DNA of 44,742 nucleotides, taken from IMG/VR virus record IMGVR_UViG_3300047195_000504, positions 1 to 44,742 of that record. One strand, given 5' to 3'. The stretch comes from a virus. Both the position numbers and the translations under genes were made by a program. Position 1 is the first letter of the stretch; every line of letters begins with the position of its first letter. The notes under the pieces were generated by a model. That model did not search any database and had not been told where the DNA came from. It saw only the letters and a list, made by a program, of their open reading frames with translations. Shown here piece by piece: positions 1-44,742 of this stretch.

Positions 1-127
1 CGCCTTGGTCAAAGGCGCGGCACAGCTCCAGCAGCAGCTGGGATTGTTTGATCCGAAAACCACGTTCACCCTTTCGAACCCCCGGGCGGTTGCGTGGATG
101 CGGAAGAACGGCGGCTCTGTCGATTAT
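1..127. repeat. Terminal direct repeat, left copy
   Basis: These 127 bases are identical to 44616-44742. The repeat lies inside the minor-head coding region and joins its two halves in frame. A 127-base exact overlap is what an assembler working at k=127 leaves on a circular or circularly permuted molecule, so this is most likely an assembly overlap and not a biological repeat. Confidence 0.97.
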
Positions 128-526
128 ATCAAGGACATCCAGCAGACGACTGCCGATAGCCTGAAACAGGTGATCACCACCGGCCTTGATGAAGGCTGGA
201 GCTACAACACCACCGCCCGCGAGATCCAGAAGCTCTACGATGAACCGATCAGCCGTGATCGTGCCCAACTCATTGCCGTGACAGAATCAGCACGCGCTTA
301 CGAGGCGGGAAACCATGCTTTCGCGCAGTCCATCGAGGACGAAGGGATCGCCATGGAAAAGCAGTGGACTACCTCGCACGACGACCGCGTGAGCGACGGG
401 TGCGCAGAGAACGAGGCCGCCGGCTGGATCCCGCTGGATGAAGCGTTTCCGTCCGGTGATCAGGAGCCCCCCCGGTTCCCCGGGTGCCGGTGTTACTGTA
501 TGTATCGACAAGTGAAAGGAGGATAA
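1..526 (+). CDS. Minor head protein, SPP1 gp7 / Mu gpF family (C-terminal part)
   Basis: C-terminal 175 residues of a head morphogenesis protein whose start is at the other end of the window (44281). Joined across the overlap, the gene is 861 nt and encodes 286 residues. The family signature is clear near the end: a W-T-T..D-D-R-V segment, a C..N..G-W-I segment, then F-P-S-G, P-P, and a C-R-C motif. Proteins of this family bind the portal and act during procapsid assembly or DNA ejection. The position directly after the portal fits. The stop at 524-526 is followed by a strong Shine-Dalgarno sequence for the next gene. Confidence 0.93.
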   Translation, partial: ALVKGAAQLQQQLGLFDPKTTFTLSNPRAVAWMRKNGGSVDYIKDIQQTTADSLKQVITTGLDEGWSYNTTAREIQKLYDEPISRDRAQLIAVTESARAYEAGNHAFAQSIEDEGIAMEKQWTTSHDDRVSDGCAENEAAGWIPLDEAFPSGDQEPPRFPGCRCYCMYRQVKGG

Positions 527-6779: not shown

Positions 6780-7364
6780 ATGGTTCTCCCCTCCGTCTTC
6801 CTAATCCACAGTGCCACCCTCCATCAGCAGCAGCAGAACTTCACGCTCGGGTACGATGCCGGCACCGCAGCATTCACGGCAGGCAAAACCCTCACAGGTG
6901 CAACCTCACATGCCACCGCAATCATTGTATCGACAGGCGCCGTTGCGTCCGGCACGCTCACCCTGCACACCATCACCGGCACGTTCCAGAACGACGAGGC
7001 AATCAGCGATAACGGAACGGTGCCCGGCGCGGCGGTAGTAAACGGCACGATTGCGGAAGCGTTCGATGCATACGGAAACCTCTCATATACGGATGTGACC
7101 GCCACGGTTGCATGCCGGTTTGTCGGGCCGCAGGAATCTTTCCGATCCGGTGCCCGGAACATTCCATACATCGTAAGCACACCCCGCGTCCTGCTCCCTG
7201 CAGGCACGGCCGTGGCTGAAGGCGATACCCTGACCAGCACAATTCTTGGATTCGCAGGAACGTTCCGTGTCAACAGCGTGAAGCAGACCTACGAGGCAGC
7301 GCAGGCGACCGTATCGCATATCACATGTGAGATCGCCGCTGCAGGCGCAACCGGGGGTGCATGA
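6780..7364 (+). CDS. Head closure protein with inserted beta domain
   Basis: 194 residues, starting directly after the connector stop. The C-terminal half (from about residue 95, with V-A-C-R-F-V-G-P and a beta-rich end) resembles a head-closure or stopper protein. The N-terminal half carries a Thr/Ala/Gly-rich beta segment (F-T-A-G-K-T-L-T-G-A-T-S-H-A-T) like domains often grafted onto phage structural proteins. The family is longer here than the usual 110-130 residues because of this insert. Assignment rests mainly on order. Confidence 0.65.
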   Translation: MVLPSVFLIHSATLHQQQQNFTLGYDAGTAAFTAGKTLTGATSHATAIIVSTGAVASGTLTLHTITGTFQNDEAISDNGTVPGAAVVNGTIAEAFDAYGNLSYTDVTATVACRFVGPQESFRSGARNIPYIVSTPRVLLPAGTAVAEGDTLTSTILGFAGTFRVNSVKQTYEAAQATVSHITCEIAAAGATGGA

Positions 7365-7365
7365 G

Positions 7366-7689
7366 ATGGATGAAGACGCGGTTCTGCTCGCCCTCGGGAA
7401 CCTGCAGGGTGAGATGAAAGGCTACAACACCCGGATGGATGGTATCGGGCGGGAGATCGGCGAGATCAAGGCTGTCCTGAAATGCAAATCCGAGGACTGC
7501 AACACCTGCCGGGAAGAGATCGATACCGAGATCGCCGGGCTCAAGAGCACCCATACCGGGGAGGCCGCGGTCCGGTCCTGGAAAGACAAAACCATCGGGG
7601 AAGTCGGAGTAATCATCGGCGCCGGTCTCGGTGTAGTCACCTTTACTGCATGGGTCGTGCGTGGTATCCTGACAGGGGACTGGGCCTGA
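7366..7689 (+). CDS. Coiled-coil protein with one C-terminal membrane segment (XhlA-like topology)
   Basis: 107 residues from ATG 7366, one base after the previous stop. Residues 1-70 form a charged coiled coil with a C-x-x-C (C-N-T-C) and one further Cys. Residues about 78-100 (V-G-V-I-I-G-A-G-L-G-V-V-T-F-T-A-W-V-V) form a transmembrane helix, followed by a short tail. Size and topology are those of XhlA-type lysis or membrane proteins, but the place, inside the connector genes, is unusual. It could also be a virion component that meets the membrane during entry. Confidence 0.72.
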   Translation: MDEDAVLLALGNLQGEMKGYNTRMDGIGREIGEIKAVLKCKSEDCNTCREEIDTEIAGLKSTHTGEAAVRSWKDKTIGEVGVIIGAGLGVVTFTAWVVRGILTGDWA

Positions 7690-8057
7690 TGGCATCGAAG
7701 ATCAAGGGGATGGCCGAGCTCCGGAAAGCCTTTTCCGACCTGTCGAAGATGGCAGAAAAGAACCAAAGCACAGCGCTGAAACTCGCAGCGAACGAGTACA
7801 AAAACGACGTGCAGGAAGGCGCCCCGTATAAGACTGGCACGCTCCGGCGGTCGATCCATGTCGAAATGGTATCATCGTCTCAGGCGCTGGTCGGTACTGA
7901 TCTACCCTATGCCAAACGGCTGGAGTTCGGGTTCGCCGACAAGGACAAGCTCGGCCGGGTCTACAACCAAGCCGCCCACCCCTACTTCCGCCCGCCTCTT
8001 GATCTGAACTGGGAAAAGTACCAGAAAACGTATCTGGAGGCGTTAGGCCGTGCGTGA
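7689..8057 (+). CDS. HK97 gp10-like head-tail joining protein
   Basis: 122 residues from ATG 7689, overlapping the previous stop by one base. The diagnostic core A-P-Y-K-T-G-T-L-R-R-S-I-H is followed by L-P-Y-A-K-R-L-E-F-G and, near the end, A-H-P-Y-F-R-P-P. These are hallmarks of the HK97-gp10/tail-component family at the neck. The gene overlaps the next by 8 nt. Confidence 0.9.
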   Translation: MASKIKGMAELRKAFSDLSKMAEKNQSTALKLAANEYKNDVQEGAPYKTGTLRRSIHVEMVSSSQALVGTDLPYAKRLEFGFADKDKLGRVYNQAAHPYFRPPLDLNWEKYQKTYLEALGRA

Positions 8058-13757: not shown

Positions 13758-14666
13758 ATGGCTTATGTAGAAATGAAGAAACTGAAAAAGAACAGCGTCT
13801 CGACGACGATAACCGGCGATCTTCTTGTCGGAACGACTACGATCCCGGTTGCAGAACTCGCATATTTCCGCGACGCTGACGGTACCCTGATCACAAAAGG
13901 GATCGTGCTCGGGTATAACGACGCGACGGAAGCACAGTCAGAGGAGATCACGATCACGGGCGCGTCCGGATCGTCCGGGGCAGGTAACCTCACCGGAGCA
14001 ACCCGTGGCATCAAAGCAGATGGGTCAATCGGGCAGGCGTATGCATGGCCGTCCGGCACCCGGATCGCCGTGATGTTCTCGACTACGATCTATGAGATCA
14101 TCAAAGACAACTTCATCGCGCACGAATCCGGGAAAGCTCCAAATCCGTTCTTCGATTACCGCACGCTCTATCCGGGCGGCGCGATGGTTCCGACCGTCGA
14201 CCCGGCGGGGATGGTCGAGCAGTACGAAACGACCACCAACAAGAACAACTATGTCGCGGGGCAGTTCACAGACGGCGGCACGGACGAGCTGCAATGGCTC
14301 GTTGATTTCCCTGAAGACTGGGACGGCGACCATGCGACTCTGGGGAAAATCATCATCACGCCGATATGGACGGCAGCAAGCGGTAGCGGCACGGTCAAGT
14401 TCGTCTTCACTGGCAAGTTGTTCGCAAACGATGATGCGCTCGATACCGCTCTCGCCGCCATCGGAGACAGCACGGATACCCTGATCACGGCGGAGGATGT
14501 GCATGTCGGGCCGGCATCAACCGCAGCGGTCATCTCGCCGATTTCTGCGGGTGCAAAGACCGCCATCCTTAAGGTGACGCGGGACTCTGCGAATGACACA
14601 CTCAATGCGACTGCCCGGCTGATTGCAGTCCGGGTCAAGTTCATCCGGACACTGGCATACACATGA
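13758..14666 (+). CDS. Tail fibre / baseplate protein
   Basis: 302 residues from ATG 13758. The N-terminal 110 residues form a beta-rich domain (V-S-T-T-I-T-G-D-L-L-V-G-T-T-T-I-P-V, then R-D-A-D-G-T-L-I-T-K-G-I-V-L-G-Y) typical of phage baseplate or fibre attachment domains. The rest is a second beta domain with D-F-P-E-D-W-D. No enzyme motif is seen. It most likely carries receptor-binding or tip-assembly functions. Confidence 0.65.
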   Translation: MAYVEMKKLKKNSVSTTITGDLLVGTTTIPVAELAYFRDADGTLITKGIVLGYNDATEAQSEEITITGASGSSGAGNLTGATRGIKADGSIGQAYAWPSGTRIAVMFSTTIYEIIKDNFIAHESGKAPNPFFDYRTLYPGGAMVPTVDPAGMVEQYETTTNKNNYVAGQFTDGGTDELQWLVDFPEDWDGDHATLGKIIITPIWTAASGSGTVKFVFTGKLFANDDALDTALAAIGDSTDTLITAEDVHVGPASTAAVISPISAGAKTAILKVTRDSANDTLNATARLIAVRVKFIRTLAYT

Positions 14667-14676
14667 GGCAGAGCGG

Positions 14677-15936
14677 ATGAAACCTCATTATTTTGTTCTT
14701 GCGGGCATCATCGTTTTGCTGCTGATTGGAGTGGTACAGGCAACGACGTACACCAGTCAATATCCACTAGCTCACAACGACACGTATGTGAAATCTACAT
14801 CTGAACTAGCTGCGAATTATCACATTTATTATGCAACCGACCCGACAAAATCGCTGATCGGAGATGCGGATGGTAATGCTTGGATAGCGGCAACGGAGTC
14901 AAACCAACGTATACATGTCGACCTCGGATCTGCAAAAGTGATTAAGCGAATATACTATGAGAATCATCACCAGGCAGGGGGGTATACCGACCGTGGATCG
15001 AATGCTGTAACATTCTGGGGCACAAATTCCAGCACAGCGTTTGCAGAACTGACTTACTCGATAGACACCGACTGGACACAGATGACATTGGCTTCCGGCA
15101 ACCTCACACAGCATGTGGCGCTGGATCAGGCAGATCCTCAGTATATACTTGTCACAAACGATGCACCGTGTCAGTATTATGCTTTGAAGGTCGCGTCTAA
15201 CTTCGGGGGCACATATATAGGTATCCGGCGCATCGTGTTGCAGACCGAGGACCCCGCCGCTCCGGTAGGGAACTTTTCGATCAGCAACACGACCGGCACA
15301 GCTCCCTTGATTGCGGCATTCACGGATACATCGACGAATACCCCGACAGGATGGAACTGGAGTTTCACGAACGTTACCGGCGACAATATCCAAGTCTGGT
15401 TCAGCACATCGCAGAACCCGACAAAGACGTTTACCCTCGCCGGGAACTACTCGATCCAGCTCAATGTTACGAACGCGGGGGGAGCGAACACGACGCCTGC
15501 GAACACGAAATGGGTGAATGTATCCAGCGGTGCGACAACGCCGATAGTCCTGTGGACGGTCAACTCCCAGACAATTGTATTCCCCGGCAGGCTTATTGGC
15601 AATGACTCGTCCCTGAACACACCGACAGCCTGGTGCTGGTCGTTTGGTGACGGATCGGCCGTCCAGACCACCAAGAACGTCACGTACCAGTATGTGAAAA
15701 GAGGTGTCTGGAATGCCTCGCTGAACGCATCGAACGCGGCGGGGTACAACCAATCATACAAACTGATCCGGATTCTTGGGTTCGCGCAAGGAGCAGGGCC
15801 CAGTGCGCCTTTACCGGGCGTGCCGTGGCGGGAACAGGTGTCGATGGAGTACGGGACGTATTCGGTGAGCCGGGAACTCTCACCAGCGGAAAGAAGGATG
15901 ACTGACTGTAAACTCATCGGGCTCTGCGAGGTGTGA
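14677..15936 (+). CDS. Secreted protein with F5/8C-like and two PKD domains
   Basis: 419 residues from ATG 14677. Residues 1-22 form a signal peptide (hydrophobic A-G-I-I-V-L-L-L-I-G-V-V, cleavage after Q-A). Residues about 30-190 look like an F5/8-type carbohydrate-binding sandwich, with I-H-V-D-L-G-S-A-K-V-I-K. Two PKD domains follow, around 195-290 and 295-375, with W-N-W-S-F and W-C-W-S-F-G-D-G. Many N-x-S/T sequons suggest glycosylation. The last 50 residues lack this composition. Base use at the start is more AT-rich than the tail genes. Host-derived adhesin or exported receptor-masking protein are both possible. Confidence 0.8.
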   Translation: MKPHYFVLAGIIVLLLIGVVQATTYTSQYPLAHNDTYVKSTSELAANYHIYYATDPTKSLIGDADGNAWIAATESNQRIHVDLGSAKVIKRIYYENHHQAGGYTDRGSNAVTFWGTNSSTAFAELTYSIDTDWTQMTLASGNLTQHVALDQADPQYILVTNDAPCQYYALKVASNFGGTYIGIRRIVLQTEDPAAPVGNFSISNTTGTAPLIAAFTDTSTNTPTGWNWSFTNVTGDNIQVWFSTSQNPTKTFTLAGNYSIQLNVTNAGGANTTPANTKWVNVSSGATTPIVLWTVNSQTIVFPGRLIGNDSSLNTPTAWCWSFGDGSAVQTTKNVTYQYVKRGVWNASLNASNAAGYNQSYKLIRILGFAQGAGPSAPLPGVPWREQVSMEYGTYSVSRELSPAERRMTDCKLIGLCEV

Positions 15937-17718: not shown

Positions 17719-18357
17719 TTATTTTAAGCCGAGGAATCGTAGGATCGCATCGATCCAGGATCCCTGCTCCTCGATCTGCGTTTGCATTGCCGCGATAGTC
17801 GCCTCGTAATTCGGGGTTGCCGTCGGGGATGGGGTCGGTGCGGTGACCTCTGCGATCACCGGTGTCGGCGTGTTCTGGAGCGTGGCGATCTTGGTATCCT
17901 GCTCAGCGACTTTCTTTTCAAGCTGCGCAATCTTCGCGCTATAGTCGGGGGTTGGCTCGGGTGTCGGAGTTGGTGTCGGGATCTTCGGAAGCGATCTTGC
18001 GACTGTAAACCCGGCCGTGGCAAAGTCTTGGGAATCCATGAAGTTGGTTCCCTCCAGTGAAGAAGCATATATGATATATCCCCCGATGGCAGGGGTAAAC
18101 GAGTGCGACCATGATTTATCGGGATTCACTGATACTTCAAGGAACCGATCTTCCCATGTGTTCATATTCGTTAATTTGAGGTATGCTTTCCCCGAGACTG
18201 TGTTTGTCCCGGAAATTGTTACGGTATCCCCGGTCATGAACATAGGCTGCCCGTTCGGTGGATTTGTCACCGTGATAGAGATATTCCCTGCCGCAGCAAT
18301 CCCACAGAGCAACAGTACGCAGATCCCGACCGCCAACCATCGCGCCATTTTTTGCAT
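17719..18357 (-). CDS. Exported S-layer-like protein with Thr/Pro stalk
   Basis: 212 residues. Residues 1-23 are a signal peptide. Residues about 25-120 form a beta domain (I-T-V-T-N-P-P-N-G-Q-P, then G-D-T-V-T-I-S-G-T-N) resembling the domain found in S-layer-type surface proteins of Methanomicrobiales. Thr/Pro stretches (T-P-T-P-T-P-E-P-T-P) alternate with coiled-coil segments up to the end. There is no C-terminal membrane anchor. Opposite strand to the tail genes and next to the integrase: probably expressed in the lysogen to alter the cell surface. An upstream TATA box suits a leaderless start at 18357; a second ATG lies at 18348. Confidence 0.82.
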   Translation of the reverse strand: MQKMARWLAVGICVLLLCGIAAAGNISITVTNPPNGQPMFMTGDTVTISGTNTVSGKAYLKLTNMNTWEDRFLEVSVNPDKSWSHSFTPAIGGYIIYASSLEGTNFMDSQDFATAGFTVARSLPKIPTPTPTPEPTPDYSAKIAQLEKKVAEQDTKIATLQNTPTPVIAEVTAPTPSPTATPNYEATIAAMQTQIEEQGSWIDAILRFLGLK

Positions 18358-18543: not shown

Positions 18544-19584
18544 GTGTACACCGTTGCCCAATATCTGCGGATGCTGCGGCTTGCCAAACGCGCCGATAGC
18601 ACCATCAAACTCTATGAGAAGGTCTTCCGGCATTATGCCGCGTTCCTGGATGTGCCTCTGACTGAAATTCACAATCATCTTTTGCCGGAGAACCTTATTA
18701 AATATTCAGAATCCCGGCCGGGGAAAAGCAACCGGAGAACCAAGGTGAATCTCTCGATCATTCATCGGTTCATGGAGATTAATGGCGTGAAGTTCGATCC
18801 GCTGGAAATGAACGTCGTGAGAGCGCAGAGTATAGAGGAGCCTGACGATAAACCGCTGGAACTTGCGACCCTGCAGAAGATGATGGATCTGACCAGTGTC
18901 CACGGGAAAGCAATCATTTCAACCCTGATCAGTACCGGCATGCGCCGGAACGAATGCTCACGGGTTCTGCTCTCTGATCTGGAGGGTGATATGATCAGGA
19001 TCCGGAACGAGACCGCCAAGGGTGGGCGCGGGGGAACCGTCTATCTCACTTCAGAAGCGCGGGAATATCTGGATCTCTGGTTGAAGGAACGACCGGATTA
19101 TCTGGAACGGGTGAAAAGGAAGCGCTTCTCTGGGTACCGGCCAAAGGACGATCAAAGACTCTTTGCCTGTGGGGACTTCACAATGCGGGATATCTTTCAC
19201 CGTCTATATATGCGCGTGGATGGTGAACGGGGGAAATACCGGGACCGCATCACCCTTCATTCATGCCGGCGATATTTCAGGACGCACGCGGTAAAAACCA
19301 TGCCGCTGGACTTGGTTGAAAAGATATTAAGGCATACCGGATACCTCACCAGTTCCTATGTCAGGATCTCGGATGAGGAGGCGCGCCGGATTTTTCATGA
19401 GGGCGAGCATGTCTTATATATCACCCGGAAAGACCAGAGAATGACAGAGAATGCGCTGGAATCCTTGGAACGAGAGAATAAGGCACTCGCTGTACGGCAG
19501 GAGAAGGAGATCGCAGAACTCAAACTTCAACAGGTCGCAACGGAAAGAGTTCTTGCCCGACTCGTGCAAAAGCAGGGAAAATAA
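18544..19584 (+). CDS. int: Tyrosine recombinase / integrase
   Basis: 346 residues from GTG 18544. An N-terminal SAM-like core-binding domain (residues 1-95, with Y-E-K-V-F-R-H-Y-A-A-F-L) precedes the catalytic domain. The catalytic set is visible: Arg134 in T-G-M-R-R-N-E, H239-x-x-R242 in H-S-C-R-R, His264 in L-R-H-T-G and nucleophile Tyr272 in S-S-Y-V-R-I. A charged coiled-coil tail (about 300-346) follows, as in XerC/D-like archaeal integrases. It mediates integration and excision at an att site that I could not locate. The start is probably leaderless. Confidence 0.95.
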   Translation: MYTVAQYLRMLRLAKRADSTIKLYEKVFRHYAAFLDVPLTEIHNHLLPENLIKYSESRPGKSNRRTKVNLSIIHRFMEINGVKFDPLEMNVVRAQSIEEPDDKPLELATLQKMMDLTSVHGKAIISTLISTGMRRNECSRVLLSDLEGDMIRIRNETAKGGRGGTVYLTSEAREYLDLWLKERPDYLERVKRKRFSGYRPKDDQRLFACGDFTMRDIFHRLYMRVDGERGKYRDRITLHSCRRYFRTHAVKTMPLDLVEKILRHTGYLTSSYVRISDEEARRIFHEGEHVLYITRKDQRMTENALESLERENKALAVRQEKEIAELKLQQVATERVLARLVQKQGK

Positions 19585-19604: not shown

Positions 19605-20042
19605 TTAAATAGGCATGAGATCCGAGGCAGTATTCAAATCATCTGCAGAGCCAGTGAAATAAGCATTTGCCTGTTTTAGATTGATAGTATATTTCACCAT
19701 ATCATTTGTTGCATATCCATCCAGGATCAATTGGCATCCTTTCTTTTGTTTTTCGAGGGCCAAGAGGATATACTTTTTTGGATTCCGGTATTTCTCACTG
19801 ACTTCTAATGCTGAGATCTTTATGATATAGGTATTATCAATAGAAATTATATTCCGGCAATGGATGTTGGCTCCGGATAAATCAAAATCCTCAAATGCCT
19901 TCCCAAGGAGAACAGTATCGGGTTTGATTGCTATTGCCATATCGGATACTGTGCTTTTAAACTGCGAATCATTATTTACACAGCCGGGGGTAATTGCAAC
20001 GGCGATTACCAGCAACAATAAAATGAAAGGAATAATTTTCAT
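19605..20042 (-). CDS. Membrane-anchored lipoprotein, candidate exclusion factor
   Basis: 145 residues. Residues 1-20 are a hydrophobic signal and I-T-P-G-C (Cys21) is a lipobox, so the mature protein should be lipid-anchored outside the membrane. The rest is a mixed domain of about 120 residues with no recognised family. It is clearly more AT-rich than the tail genes. Its place between integrase and regulators, on the lysogenic strand, suggests a lysogenic conversion or superinfection-exclusion protein (inference). Confidence 0.78.
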   Translation of the reverse strand: MKIIPFILLLLVIAVAITPGCVNNDSQFKSTVSDMAIAIKPDTVLLGKAFEDFDLSGANIHCRNIISIDNTYIIKISALEVSEKYRNPKKYILLALEKQKKGCQLILDGYATNDMVKYTINLKQANAYFTGSADDLNTASDLMPI

Positions 20043-35754: not shown

Positions 35755-35764
35755 GGTATATCAT
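35755..35764 (+). promoter_or_regulatory. Lysis promoter TATA box
   Basis: GGTATATCAT lies about 28 nt before ATG 35789, again matching a leaderless message. It separates the lysis genes from the early cluster. Confidence 0.5.
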
Positions 35765-35788: not shown

Positions 35789-36964
35789 ATGCCCCCCCTT
35801 TTTCCTGTTCTCGATCCACCCCCGACCGGCAAACCGCAGGACTGGAGCCTGCGGGAAATGAGATCCTTGATGGCGATGGTTGCGCCCCAGCCTGCCGAAT
35901 GGCACAACCCATACGTCAAGGACACCGCTGACCGCGATCAGGACAAGGGCGGTACCTGCACCGGGCAGGCGTACGCCCGCGCTGCCGATCTGAACTACAT
36001 GCGGCTCACAAAAGACCTCCCGACCGCTGAAGATAAAGCCAAATTCCAGAAAGATTTTGTTGACGCCATCGGTACGCGCTGCGATATCCTCTTTCCGAAA
36101 TCGTTCAGCGCAGAGGCCGCGTACCAGATGGGGCGGCACGTCGGCAATATCACCTATCCGTCCGGAGGGGAGATCCGGTTCAATGCCCGTGCATGGCGGG
36201 ATATCGGGCAATTCCTCGAATCGCAGTGGCACACCGATAAGGAAAGGACATGCGTCTGGGCGTATCCGCCCGGCGTGCGCGCGGCAGCCAACGGCGGTGT
36301 AACGCAGGAACAGGCCGAACAGTTCGCAACGCTCCATAAAATCAAAGGGTGGGCGATGGTCGGCAGGGAGGACGGGTACGCCACATGGGACGAGATCTGC
36401 GACGCCATCTGGCAATATGGGTTCGTAATCTGCGCCATTCCAATCTACGAGAATTATGTAACAATGGCCGGCGGGGACGGCACCTACCCGGTCCCCAGTG
36501 GCAATATCGCCGGGTTTCACGCGCAGGTCGTGACCGGCTACACCCCGGATACGCTCGATATTGAACATTCGTGGGGAACCTGGTGCGGGCAGCACGGCAA
36601 GCTCCCGAAAGAGTATTACCAGGTCGCCCAGGATCAGTGCGTCTGGATGGTCATCCTTGACGATGAGGAAGCCCTGATCGCAGGCGCGACGATCTACAAG
36701 TCAATATCTGTGTCCTGCAACGTGCCGGCGCAGGTATCGGTCGATGGCATCGTGATCGGGATCACCCCCCAGAAATTCGCCATCGAGAAAGGCCGGATGT
36801 ACACGATCACCGTCAGCGCGGACGGGCATATCGCGCAGAGCCGGACGGTGGATGACAGCTCGCAGCCAGACCAGGTCTTCGAGCTTGAACCGTCTCCCCA
36901 GCCGGTCAGGAGCTGGTGGCAAATCCTGATTGAATGGTTGATCAACCTGTTCAAGAGGAAATGA
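35789..36964 (+). CDS. Papain-like (C1A) cysteine protease with PEGA domain, candidate endolysin
   Basis: 391 residues from ATG 35789. The nucleophile is Cys57 in D-Q-D-K-G-G-T-C-T-G-Q-A, with the oxyanion Gln just before it. His244 is in G-F-H-A-Q-V-V-T-G-Y. The third site is H-S-W-G-T-W-C-G, where papain has N-S-W-G: His260 replaces Asn. Residues about 305-358 form a PEGA domain, and the end (S-W-W-Q-I-L-I-E-W-L-I-N-L-F-K-R-K) is an amphipathic or membrane-binding helix. No signal peptide is seen. With the membrane protein that follows, it probably breaks the S-layer or sheath from inside. It could alternatively process virion proteins. Confidence 0.82.
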   Translation: MPPLFPVLDPPPTGKPQDWSLREMRSLMAMVAPQPAEWHNPYVKDTADRDQDKGGTCTGQAYARAADLNYMRLTKDLPTAEDKAKFQKDFVDAIGTRCDILFPKSFSAEAAYQMGRHVGNITYPSGGEIRFNARAWRDIGQFLESQWHTDKERTCVWAYPPGVRAAANGGVTQEQAEQFATLHKIKGWAMVGREDGYATWDEICDAIWQYGFVICAIPIYENYVTMAGGDGTYPVPSGNIAGFHAQVVTGYTPDTLDIEHSWGTWCGQHGKLPKEYYQVAQDQCVWMVILDDEEALIAGATIYKSISVSCNVPAQVSVDGIVIGITPQKFAIEKGRMYTITVSADGHIAQSRTVDDSSQPDQVFELEPSPQPVRSWWQILIEWLINLFKRK

Positions 36965-36967
36965 AAA

Positions 36968-37612
36968 ATGGACGTAAACTACATACTGCTGCTTTTCGTG
37001 GCAATCATAATGGCGCTCGCTTACGGGCTTCTCGGGTACTTCTCCGCAAGGATGAGCACCGGGGAACCGTGGAGCTGGTCGAAGTTCGCGGCAACAATCG
37101 TATACTCGTTCGTTGTCGGGTTCTTCGCGGTACAGACCGGGGTCATCACCCTTGAGAACATCGCCAACTGGCAGACTATATTCTCACCCTTGTGGGCGGA
37201 ATACGTGCTGATCTATACCGGGCTGCTCTACGTGTTCAGCAAATTCGTTGTCCCGGCAATCCAGCAGGTCACTTCCAAGACAGTGATCTTCCCGAAGGCC
37301 GAAGGAATAGACCCGGCTCACAGGATGGATGGGGAAACCCGTCACTGGCTGGTTTCCGACCAGAAAGAACCGATCGCTAACGGTGTCATGAAAGTGGTCG
37401 ATGCTGCCGAATCAGTGAAGACGTACCGGTACGCCATCGAAGCCGGTGCGTGGATCTACCTCGTCGAGTTCGGTATTGTCACCGGTGCGAAACACTACTA
37501 CTTCCGTGGCTGGTTCGGCACGCAGGCCGTGAGCTGGAAACCGATCACATCTGAATGTCTCGAAACCATCCGGAAGACCGGCAGGTTCCCGGACTATTCC
37601 GACCTGTACTGA
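36968..37612 (+). CDS. Multi-pass membrane protein, candidate holin
   Basis: 214 residues from ATG 36968, 3 nt after the protease. Three hydrophobic helices occur in the first 105 residues (about 5-25, 40-60 and 77-97). The last 105 residues are a soluble domain. Coupling to the protease suggests a holin or partner that moves the protease across the membrane. The soluble domain is larger than usual for holins, so another membrane role is possible. Confidence 0.72.
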   Translation: MDVNYILLLFVAIIMALAYGLLGYFSARMSTGEPWSWSKFAATIVYSFVVGFFAVQTGVITLENIANWQTIFSPLWAEYVLIYTGLLYVFSKFVVPAIQQVTSKTVIFPKAEGIDPAHRMDGETRHWLVSDQKEPIANGVMKVVDAAESVKTYRYAIEAGAWIYLVEFGIVTGAKHYYFRGWFGTQAVSWKPITSECLETIRKTGRFPDYSDLY

Positions 37613-37720: not shown

Positions 37721-37753
37721 CGGGGGGGCATCATATGACAATTTAAAATCATG

Positions 37754-38320
37754 ATGAAAATTCCACTCACTAAGGGACAAACGGCACTTATTGACGATGA
37801 AGATTATGATCGTCTTAAAACATCAAGATGGCACACCATCAGGGTTCATAATGCCCTCTACGCAATCAGTCAACCAGTAGTCAACCCACGAAAACGTACC
37901 AACATCTATATGCATACAGCTATCTTGGGAAGACCCGAAAAAGGCATGCAAATTGATCATATCGACGGAAACGGGTTGAATAATCAAAAATCGAATCTCC
38001 GGTTTGTAACCCCTCGCCAGAATAACCAGAACCGCCACCACGAAAAAAGGAGCAGATTTCCGGGCGTTCATAGATTAGATGGGAAATGGAGCTCAAAAAT
38101 CTGGGCAAATAATAAACGGATATACCTGGGGTTGTTTAACTCGGAAGAAGAAGCCTTTGCCACCTATTCTAATGCCCTAAAATCAATCGGTCAGAGCTTT
38201 TGTCAGGACAATCCTGGTTCAAACCCAGAGAAGCTCATTACCCTGTCAAAGACGGCAGGGAATATCGACATGCTATCGCACGTCCCCGGCAGCCGGGTCG
38301 AACCGGCAACCGGGAATTAA
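37754..38320 (+). CDS. HNH homing-type endonuclease with AP2 domain, second copy
   Basis: 188 residues from ATG 37754 (ATG 37751 is adjacent). The start M-K-I-P-L-T-K-G-Q-T-A-L-I-D-D, M-H-T-A-I-L, D-H-I-D-G-N-G-L-N-N-Q-K and the AP2 part (F-P-G-V-H ... L-G-L-F) mirror the gene at 20870. About 25 C-terminal residues are unrelated and lie over direct repeats CCGGCARCCGGG (38286-38297, 38303-38314). This extension may be host sequence caught at insertion. AT-rich compared with neighbours. Confidence 0.88.
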   Translation: MKIPLTKGQTALIDDEDYDRLKTSRWHTIRVHNALYAISQPVVNPRKRTNIYMHTAILGRPEKGMQIDHIDGNGLNNQKSNLRFVTPRQNNQNRHHEKRSRFPGVHRLDGKWSSKIWANNKRIYLGLFNSEEEAFATYSNALKSIGQSFCQDNPGSNPEKLITLSKTAGNIDMLSHVPGSRVEPATGN

Positions 38321-40140: not shown

Positions 40141-40407
40141 ATGATTGAAAGCATTGGGATCATCCTTACGGTACTGGGTTCAGCACTTGGTCTGATCGGC
40201 GCATGGGGAACGTCAAGCAAGGACCAGCGCGTCCGGCATCTCGGGTTCGCCTGCTGGGTTGTGAACTCTCCTCTGATCGTGATCTCACTTGCTGGAATAG
40301 CGAGCGGAGTCTGGGCTGGACTGAATGCATGGTGCTTTGTACCCTTGAACCTCTGCTACTGGTATACGGCCATGAGAGGGTACCGGAACACTACGGAGGC
40401 GCGATGA
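40141..40407 (+). CDS. Small membrane protein with three helices
   Basis: 88 residues. Helices at about 4-22, 33-55 and 60-78. No signal peptide. Possibly a membrane effector or antiholin; it lies away from the lysis pair. A 9-codon ORF (40404-40433) overlaps its end and is not counted as a gene. Confidence 0.7.
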   Translation: MIESIGIILTVLGSALGLIGAWGTSSKDQRVRHLGFACWVVNSPLIVISLAGIASGVWAGLNAWCFVPLNLCYWYTAMRGYRNTTEAR

Positions 40408-44280: not shown

Positions 44281-44742
44281 ACGGCACTCCATCCCGTCCT
44301 CTCCCGCGCCATCGCACGGTTCACCCGCGCCGCCATCGGCCTGAAGAAGACCCGGGAGAAGGACAGCATCGCCCGCGCCCACCAGCCGGCGCTTGAAGCG
44401 TTCTTCCGCAAACAGTACGGTCTCGTGATGTTCCGCATGATGTTCATGCAGGAGTATTTCCCACTGGTGCAGCAGGCCGAGCCGGCGGCCCGCGTGATGG
44501 AGGTCAAGCAGCCGCCGAACCCCGAGGCCCTGAAACGATGGGGGGCGATCTGGCAGGATGTCGAGCAGAAGACCACGGACGAGCTCCAGCAGATTGTGAA
44601 GGGAATCGAAGGCGACGCCTTGGTCAAAGGCGCGGCACAGCTCCAGCAGCAGCTGGGATTGTTTGATCCGAAAACCACGTTCACCCTTTCGAACCCCCGG
44701 GCGGTTGCGTGGATGCGGAAGAACGGCGGCTCTGTCGATTAT
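44281..44742 (+). CDS. Minor head protein, SPP1 gp7 / Mu gpF family (N-terminal part)
   Basis: First part of the gene that continues at base 1 (copy in the overlap: 44616-44742). The frame is open after the in-frame stop at 44266-44268. AGGGAGGT at 44268-44275 is a strong ribosome binding site, and the codon at the right distance is ACG 44281, one transition from ATG. The next in-frame ATG (44428) would remove about 49 conserved-looking residues. The start may be ACG or a population variant. Together with 1-526 the product has about 286 residues. Confidence 0.8.
44616..44742. repeat. Terminal direct repeat, right copy
   Basis: Identical to bases 1-127; see left copy. The overlap makes the circular length 44,742 - 127 = 44,615 bp. 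Confidence 0.97.

Follow-up and report, generated by a model that had tools for sequence, protein, structure and literature searches.

A papain-like cysteine protease and a three-helix membrane protein encoded side by side in four viral genomes: a candidate lysis module of tailed archaeal viruses

The stretch of DNA analysed here, a viral contig of 44,742 nucleotides taken over its full length (IMG/VR record IMGVR_UViG_3300047195_000504; hereafter the window), carries two neighbouring genes, A and B, encoding a papain-like protease and a membrane protein, and the same two genes are adjacent in all four genomes in which they were found. The best single explanation, with about an even chance of being right, is that tailed archaeal viruses exchange A and B as a lysis module made up of a holin and a protease. 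The features to which the following evidence refers are listed here with their positions in the window.

35757..35763, plus strand: TATA-box-like site TATATCA, a candidate promoter by its position only, its first base 32 nt before the ATG of A
35789..36964, plus strand: gene A, papain-like cysteine protease of 391 aa without signal peptide (Q51-C57-H244-H260)
36692..36880, plus strand: PEGA-like beta domain of A, approximately residues 302-364 (profile match; strands at 304-364 in the AF2 model)
36911..36961, plus strand: C-terminal amphipathic helix of A, SWWQILIEWLINLFKRK, of a kind conserved in the four homologues
36968..37612, plus strand: gene B, membrane protein of 214 aa with three transmembrane (TM) segments and a soluble C-terminal domain
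36968..37270, plus strand: membrane domain of B, residues 1-101, of which residues 7-55 weakly match the holin PHROGs 785 and 6384
37280..37609, plus strand: soluble domain of B, residues 105-214, which two relatives share and record L006 has exchanged for a PKD domain
40141..40407, plus strand: gene M, 88 aa with two TM segments, a candidate accessory membrane protein

A two-gene pair at 35789-37612 had been proposed in a preliminary description of the sequence, and both ORFs were borne out, lying on the same strand 3 nt apart with an AGGA close to the start of B; since homologues about 50% identical exist in other viruses, A and B are regarded as true genes. Alignment of these homologues agrees better with the ATG at 35789 as the start of A than with an upstream TTG. 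The TATATCA site is in place for the promoter of its own that had been ascribed to the pair, and is suggestive of one only. A run of six or seven T residues, resembling a terminator, lies within about 20 nt after the stop codon of B in all three relatives and is absent from the window virus itself. In the two long contigs among the relatives, 3 of 154 ORFs with a minimum length of 100 aa have such a run at their end, and two of these three should, judging from the printed sequences, be the B genes. In each of the four genomes the pair is encoded on the strand of the terminase, and the TATA-like box, the T-runs and this orientation would fit a discrete transcription unit that is expressed late or independently.

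The distribution of the pair was determined in 2.9 million viral contigs using A profiles and, independently, B or its membrane domain, and both searches gave the same three contigs: IMGVR_UViG_3300029959_000022, 3300037137_000296 and 3300027887_000012 (L006), the B of the last being found via the ORF list, a profile search and a membrane-domain scan. Other methanogen viruses had been named as the place to look for the pair; three further viral contigs now carry it, but no homologue of A or B was found in MetMV, a Methanosarcina virus (by profile search), or in vir524, a Methanomicrobiales virus. The top viral Foldseek match of A, A0A3G8F6J3, was suspected from its accession to be a MetMV protein, which the MetMV profile search, giving nothing, did not bear out. 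Two short-pattern scans of 84,980 prokaryote genomes confirmed no homologue, named phages had none besides a weak match in phage THSA-485A, and a plasmid search gave no match. All four records encode a terminase, yet these terminases are only about 20-28% identical over partial stretches, with chance-length matches only for two of the pairs, whereas A is 48-66% identical between the four genomes over nearly its full length. In an all-against-all comparison A was the most conserved protein in every one of the six genome pairs; two of these pairs, both involving the 13 kb contig, had no proteins in common other than A and B. Because A ranks first in every pair although the terminases are nearly unrelated, the simplest reading is that the gene pair has been exchanged as a unit. 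Genes for HNH endonucleases of the same family (45%) lie downstream of the pair in the window (37751-38320) and in record L002 (G002; 7198-7725), and could help it to move.

Protein A appears, from its sequence and its model, to be a divergent papain-fold protease, with proteolysis as its expected activity, and hydropathy analysis indicated neither a signal peptide nor a TM segment. A profile search matched A to xylellain (3OIS, E=0.0011) and also weakly reached papain. The AF2 model, whose mean pLDDT of 58.9 is modest and whose residues 85-186 are unreliable, matched xylellain 3OIS among solved structures in Foldseek (E=1.2e-5, prob 1.0), with matches to cathepsins too, and in HHalign A was aligned with three phage C1A peptidases (95.9%) such that C57, H244 and the S-W-G motif coincided. 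Across the four A homologues, Q51, C57, H244, H260, S261, W262 and G263 are invariant, and the spacings Q-6-C and H-16-[H/N] are those between Q19 and C25 and between H159 and N175 of papain; H260 sits at the position of papain's Asn175. Papain with changes at Asn175 stays active, with reduced activity. Because the Asn of the N-S-W motif is His in all four proteins, A is termed papain-like and not a canonical C1A member, and the replacement, being fixed in all four, is considered a family trait. The earlier assignment of A as a C1A protease with Cys57 and His244 is therefore retained for the residues, which are invariant, and for the fold, supported by 3OIS and HHalign, but is qualified by the missing Asn and by Pfam PF00112, which matched nothing in the four virus records (E<=10); the His260 that had been called unusual is present but is no oddity of this gene.

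The description of the C-terminal part of A was also revised. The PEGA domain described previously scores 18.9 bits in the window protein, below the curated cut-off of 20.8, although all three members of the first A alignment match PEGA (best E=1.4e-6). What had been described as a C-terminal membrane helix is an amphipathic helix instead, with 16-19 residues, a mean hydrophobicity (H) of 0.17-0.30, a hydrophobic moment of 0.38-0.60 and a basic end; residues 376-389 are helical in the AF2 model. The tail is too short and on average too polar to span a membrane, and would be better called a membrane-docking helix than a membrane tail. A regular expression for the tail pattern, run on ORFs of at least 60 aa from the four virus records, found three A proteins and the B of L006, and the tail of the A protein of record G003, SWFQILIEWISKLFKR, is of the same kind and missed the exact pattern. 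One minus-strand ORF of 136 aa that also fits the pattern was judged spurious.

The membrane-protein partner anticipated for A was confirmed, with three TM segments and, in addition, the soluble domain at residues 105-214. Hydrophobic segments lie near residues 5-23, 44-62 and 80-98 of B, and three peaks recur in the relatives, the third being weaker in L002; a topology with the N-terminus out and the C-terminus in, as in class I holins, is predicted from charges only. Residues 7-55 of the window protein, in its first two helices, weakly match the holin profiles phrog_785 and phrog_6384 (E ~1e-3), and phrog_785 matches three of the four B proteins (best E=1e-3). At 214-216 aa, roughly 110 of them in the soluble domain, B exceeds a small holin with a short polar C-terminus, and its structure model is poor (pLDDT 57). 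In L006, B (7247-7894) retains the three-TM domain but has a PKD domain plus amphipathic tail where the soluble domain would be; as two relatives keep the soluble part and L006 does not, the membrane part is regarded as the constant core of B. The product of gene M has a homologue in L006 (5714-5986; 31% over 84 columns, E=4e-5) whose gene lies directly upstream of A, whereas M is separate from A in the window. Since the L006 homologue adjoins A and very weakly matches a holin family (E=0.017), M may be what forms the hole in some of the viruses, and it is a possible second holin candidate or accessory holin. Pfam and PHROG scans, run on part of the window ORFs, brought up no further gene with a recognisable role in lysis; in the preliminary description, a separate known lysis gene would have counted against the lysis system.

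Several known systems resemble the pair in part. In the Thermoanaerobacterium phage THSA-485A (CP003186/NC_018264) the gene order is GH25 endolysin, C1A peptidase (phrog_16701) and holin-family protein (phrog_13712), and phrog_16701 matches A of L002, L003 and L006 (E 1e-6 to 1e-7) and not that of the window. Both arrangements thus place a C1A peptidase beside a holin-family or holin-like membrane protein, and the catalytic domains are profile-related; unlike A, however, the phage peptidase accompanies a muralytic endolysin, has neither PEGA domain nor tail and carries Asn, not His, while the membrane protein is unrelated to B and the part of the phage peptidase in lysis is putative. Thermoanaerobacterium is an S-layered genus. 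A C1A gene alone does not mean lysis, because that of Streptomyces phage Sycamore lies among tRNA genes and those of two gut-phage records (L014 3630-4537 and L015 3615-4351) come after a small lipoprotein-like ORF and before a dUTPase-like ORF that is adjacent or more distant, all outside lysis regions. Protein A shares the papain fold, the Q-C-H geometry and the S-W-G motif with xylellain (3OIS) and the short prokaryotic C1A peptidases, from which it differs in its long insert (~85-186), the His for Asn, the PEGA-like domain and the amphipathic tail. Similarly, B resembles class I holins (lambda S type) in its three TM segments, its predicted N-out/C-in topology and the adjacent gene for a cytoplasmic enzyme, and differs from them in being 214 aa long, in having a soluble domain that can be swapped and in matching their profiles weakly. 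As in a holin-endolysin cassette, a membrane-protein gene adjoins the gene of a leaderless hydrolase in all four genomes. The pseudomurein endoisopeptidases PeiW and PeiP, endolysins of archaeal viruses, are likewise cysteine peptidases used in methanogen-virus lysis; they target pseudomurein and belong to another family, C71, and in Pfam the A proteins showed neither the transglutaminase-like C71 catalytic domain nor pseudomurein-binding repeats. For egress from sheathed archaea, viral SH-like proteins that are secreted and amyloid-like and disturb assembly have been proposed (PMC11576556). For these proteins as for the A-B pair, the proposal is that they let viruses of Methanomicrobiales overcome an envelope made of protein, but A is an enzyme without signal peptide, and B also lacks one.

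The window virus probably infects methane-making archaea. Its PCNA has its closest phage-record match in vir524 (42.6%), the other matches being haloarchaeal viruses, and the matches of its terminase include MetMV, the two best being Synechococcus phages; from these sequences the host is likely a member of the Methanomicrobiales. Members of this order have S-layers, and certain genera have sheaths as well (PMC11576556). No named enzyme has been known for the exit of tailed viruses from archaea with only a protein coat. A combination of holin and S-layer protease was proposed for archaeal viruses in a 2015 review, according to which no enzyme that degrades S-layers was known and the isolated archaeal viruses had yielded no holin gene (PMC4456609). 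A 2025 survey of lytic proteins covers Pei, PVAP and, by structure, putative candidates of C39-like and holin type (PMC12596118); in the parts of it consulted no papain-like protease paired with a holin was found, and as the literature was checked by term searches an earlier report is possible. The A-B pair makes the question of egress by an S-layer protease testable with two genes, and provides a sequence signature for finding further cases.

As a lysis module, the pair would work as follows. Produced in the cytoplasm and lacking an export signal, A would take the endolysin's part, and B, as a three-helix membrane protein, that of the holin by letting A out or, alternatively, by opening the membrane where the amphipathic tail docks A. 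Once outside and positioned by its PEGA-like domain, A would cut the protein envelope, S-layer or sheath, that such hosts have in place of a peptidoglycan wall, and virions would escape. What the sequences show are the two genes, the fold of A with its invariant active site, the constant pairing, the transfer between nearly unrelated genomes and the holin-like matches; within this scheme we infer the proteolytic activity, the pore formation, the late expression, the envelope target and the host of the module. Lysis by a protease, as first suggested in the preliminary description, gains support from the strict pairing in four nearly unrelated viruses, the leaderless A, the holin-profile matches, the terminase strand and the cassette of THSA-485A; the suggestion is weakened in that the helix of A is not membrane-spanning and a rival involving superinfection exclusion persists. 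Against lysis there are also the length of B, greater than that of most holins, its soluble tail and weak matches (E ~1e-3), the candidacy of M as a holin, the catalytic Asn being His, the phage C1A genes found elsewhere, including the two gut-phage records, and the absence of A and B from vir524. That A is the first endolysin for a protein envelope, with a holin-like partner, a mobile module, hosts among S-layered or sheathed archaea and swappable surface-type domains (PEGA/PKD), falls somewhat short of an even chance.

The main rival, which we consider unlikely, is that the pair is a moron serving to exclude superinfecting viruses or to alter the host surface, transcribed independently in the provirus or early in infection, with B and the protease A cleaving a receptor, an incoming virus protein or a surface protein. 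The TATA-like box, the terminator-like T-run in the relatives and the mobility among nearly unrelated viruses fit such a moron as well, as do the HNH gene flanking the pair in two genomes and the integrase (18544-19584) encoded by the window virus; a leaderless A, however, would need a hole to get to the surface, the pair shares the terminase strand in all four genomes, and B weakly resembles holins. It is improbable that A is an intracellular protease for anti-defence or host takeover, held to the inner face of the membrane by its tail and by B and cutting a host defence protein: a cytoplasmic protease with a membrane-binding tail and a patchy, mobile distribution would suit this role, but surface proteins are where PEGA and PKD domains typically occur, and the co-conserved membrane protein is explained less well. 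Slightly more improbable still is an entry protease carried in the virion, with B aiding assembly or entry. In its favour, virion proteins often contain beta-sandwich domains, A weakly matches Head_fiber_dimeric in Pfam (20.8 against a cut-off of 30) and the pair lies near the portal gene in G003; against it, A is ~50% identical among four viruses whose structural genes are nearly unrelated, and a three-TM B would be unusual for a tailed virion.

Some further features of the genomes were observed. The integrase gene of the window is flanked by two minus-strand genes (17719-18357 and 19605-20042) whose products have signal-peptide-like starts, the second lipoprotein-like, and which are candidates for lysogenic surface change; the secreted protein of 17719-18357 had no informative match to families or solved structures. 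A head-morphogenesis ORF is cut at the left end of the window (1-526) and an ORF is open at its right end (44425-44742), and the contig possibly represents an almost complete genome in circularly permuted form. Surface or tail proteins with PKD and F5/8-like domains are related between the window (14623-15936) and L002 (2559-3893), and likely serve in receptor binding.
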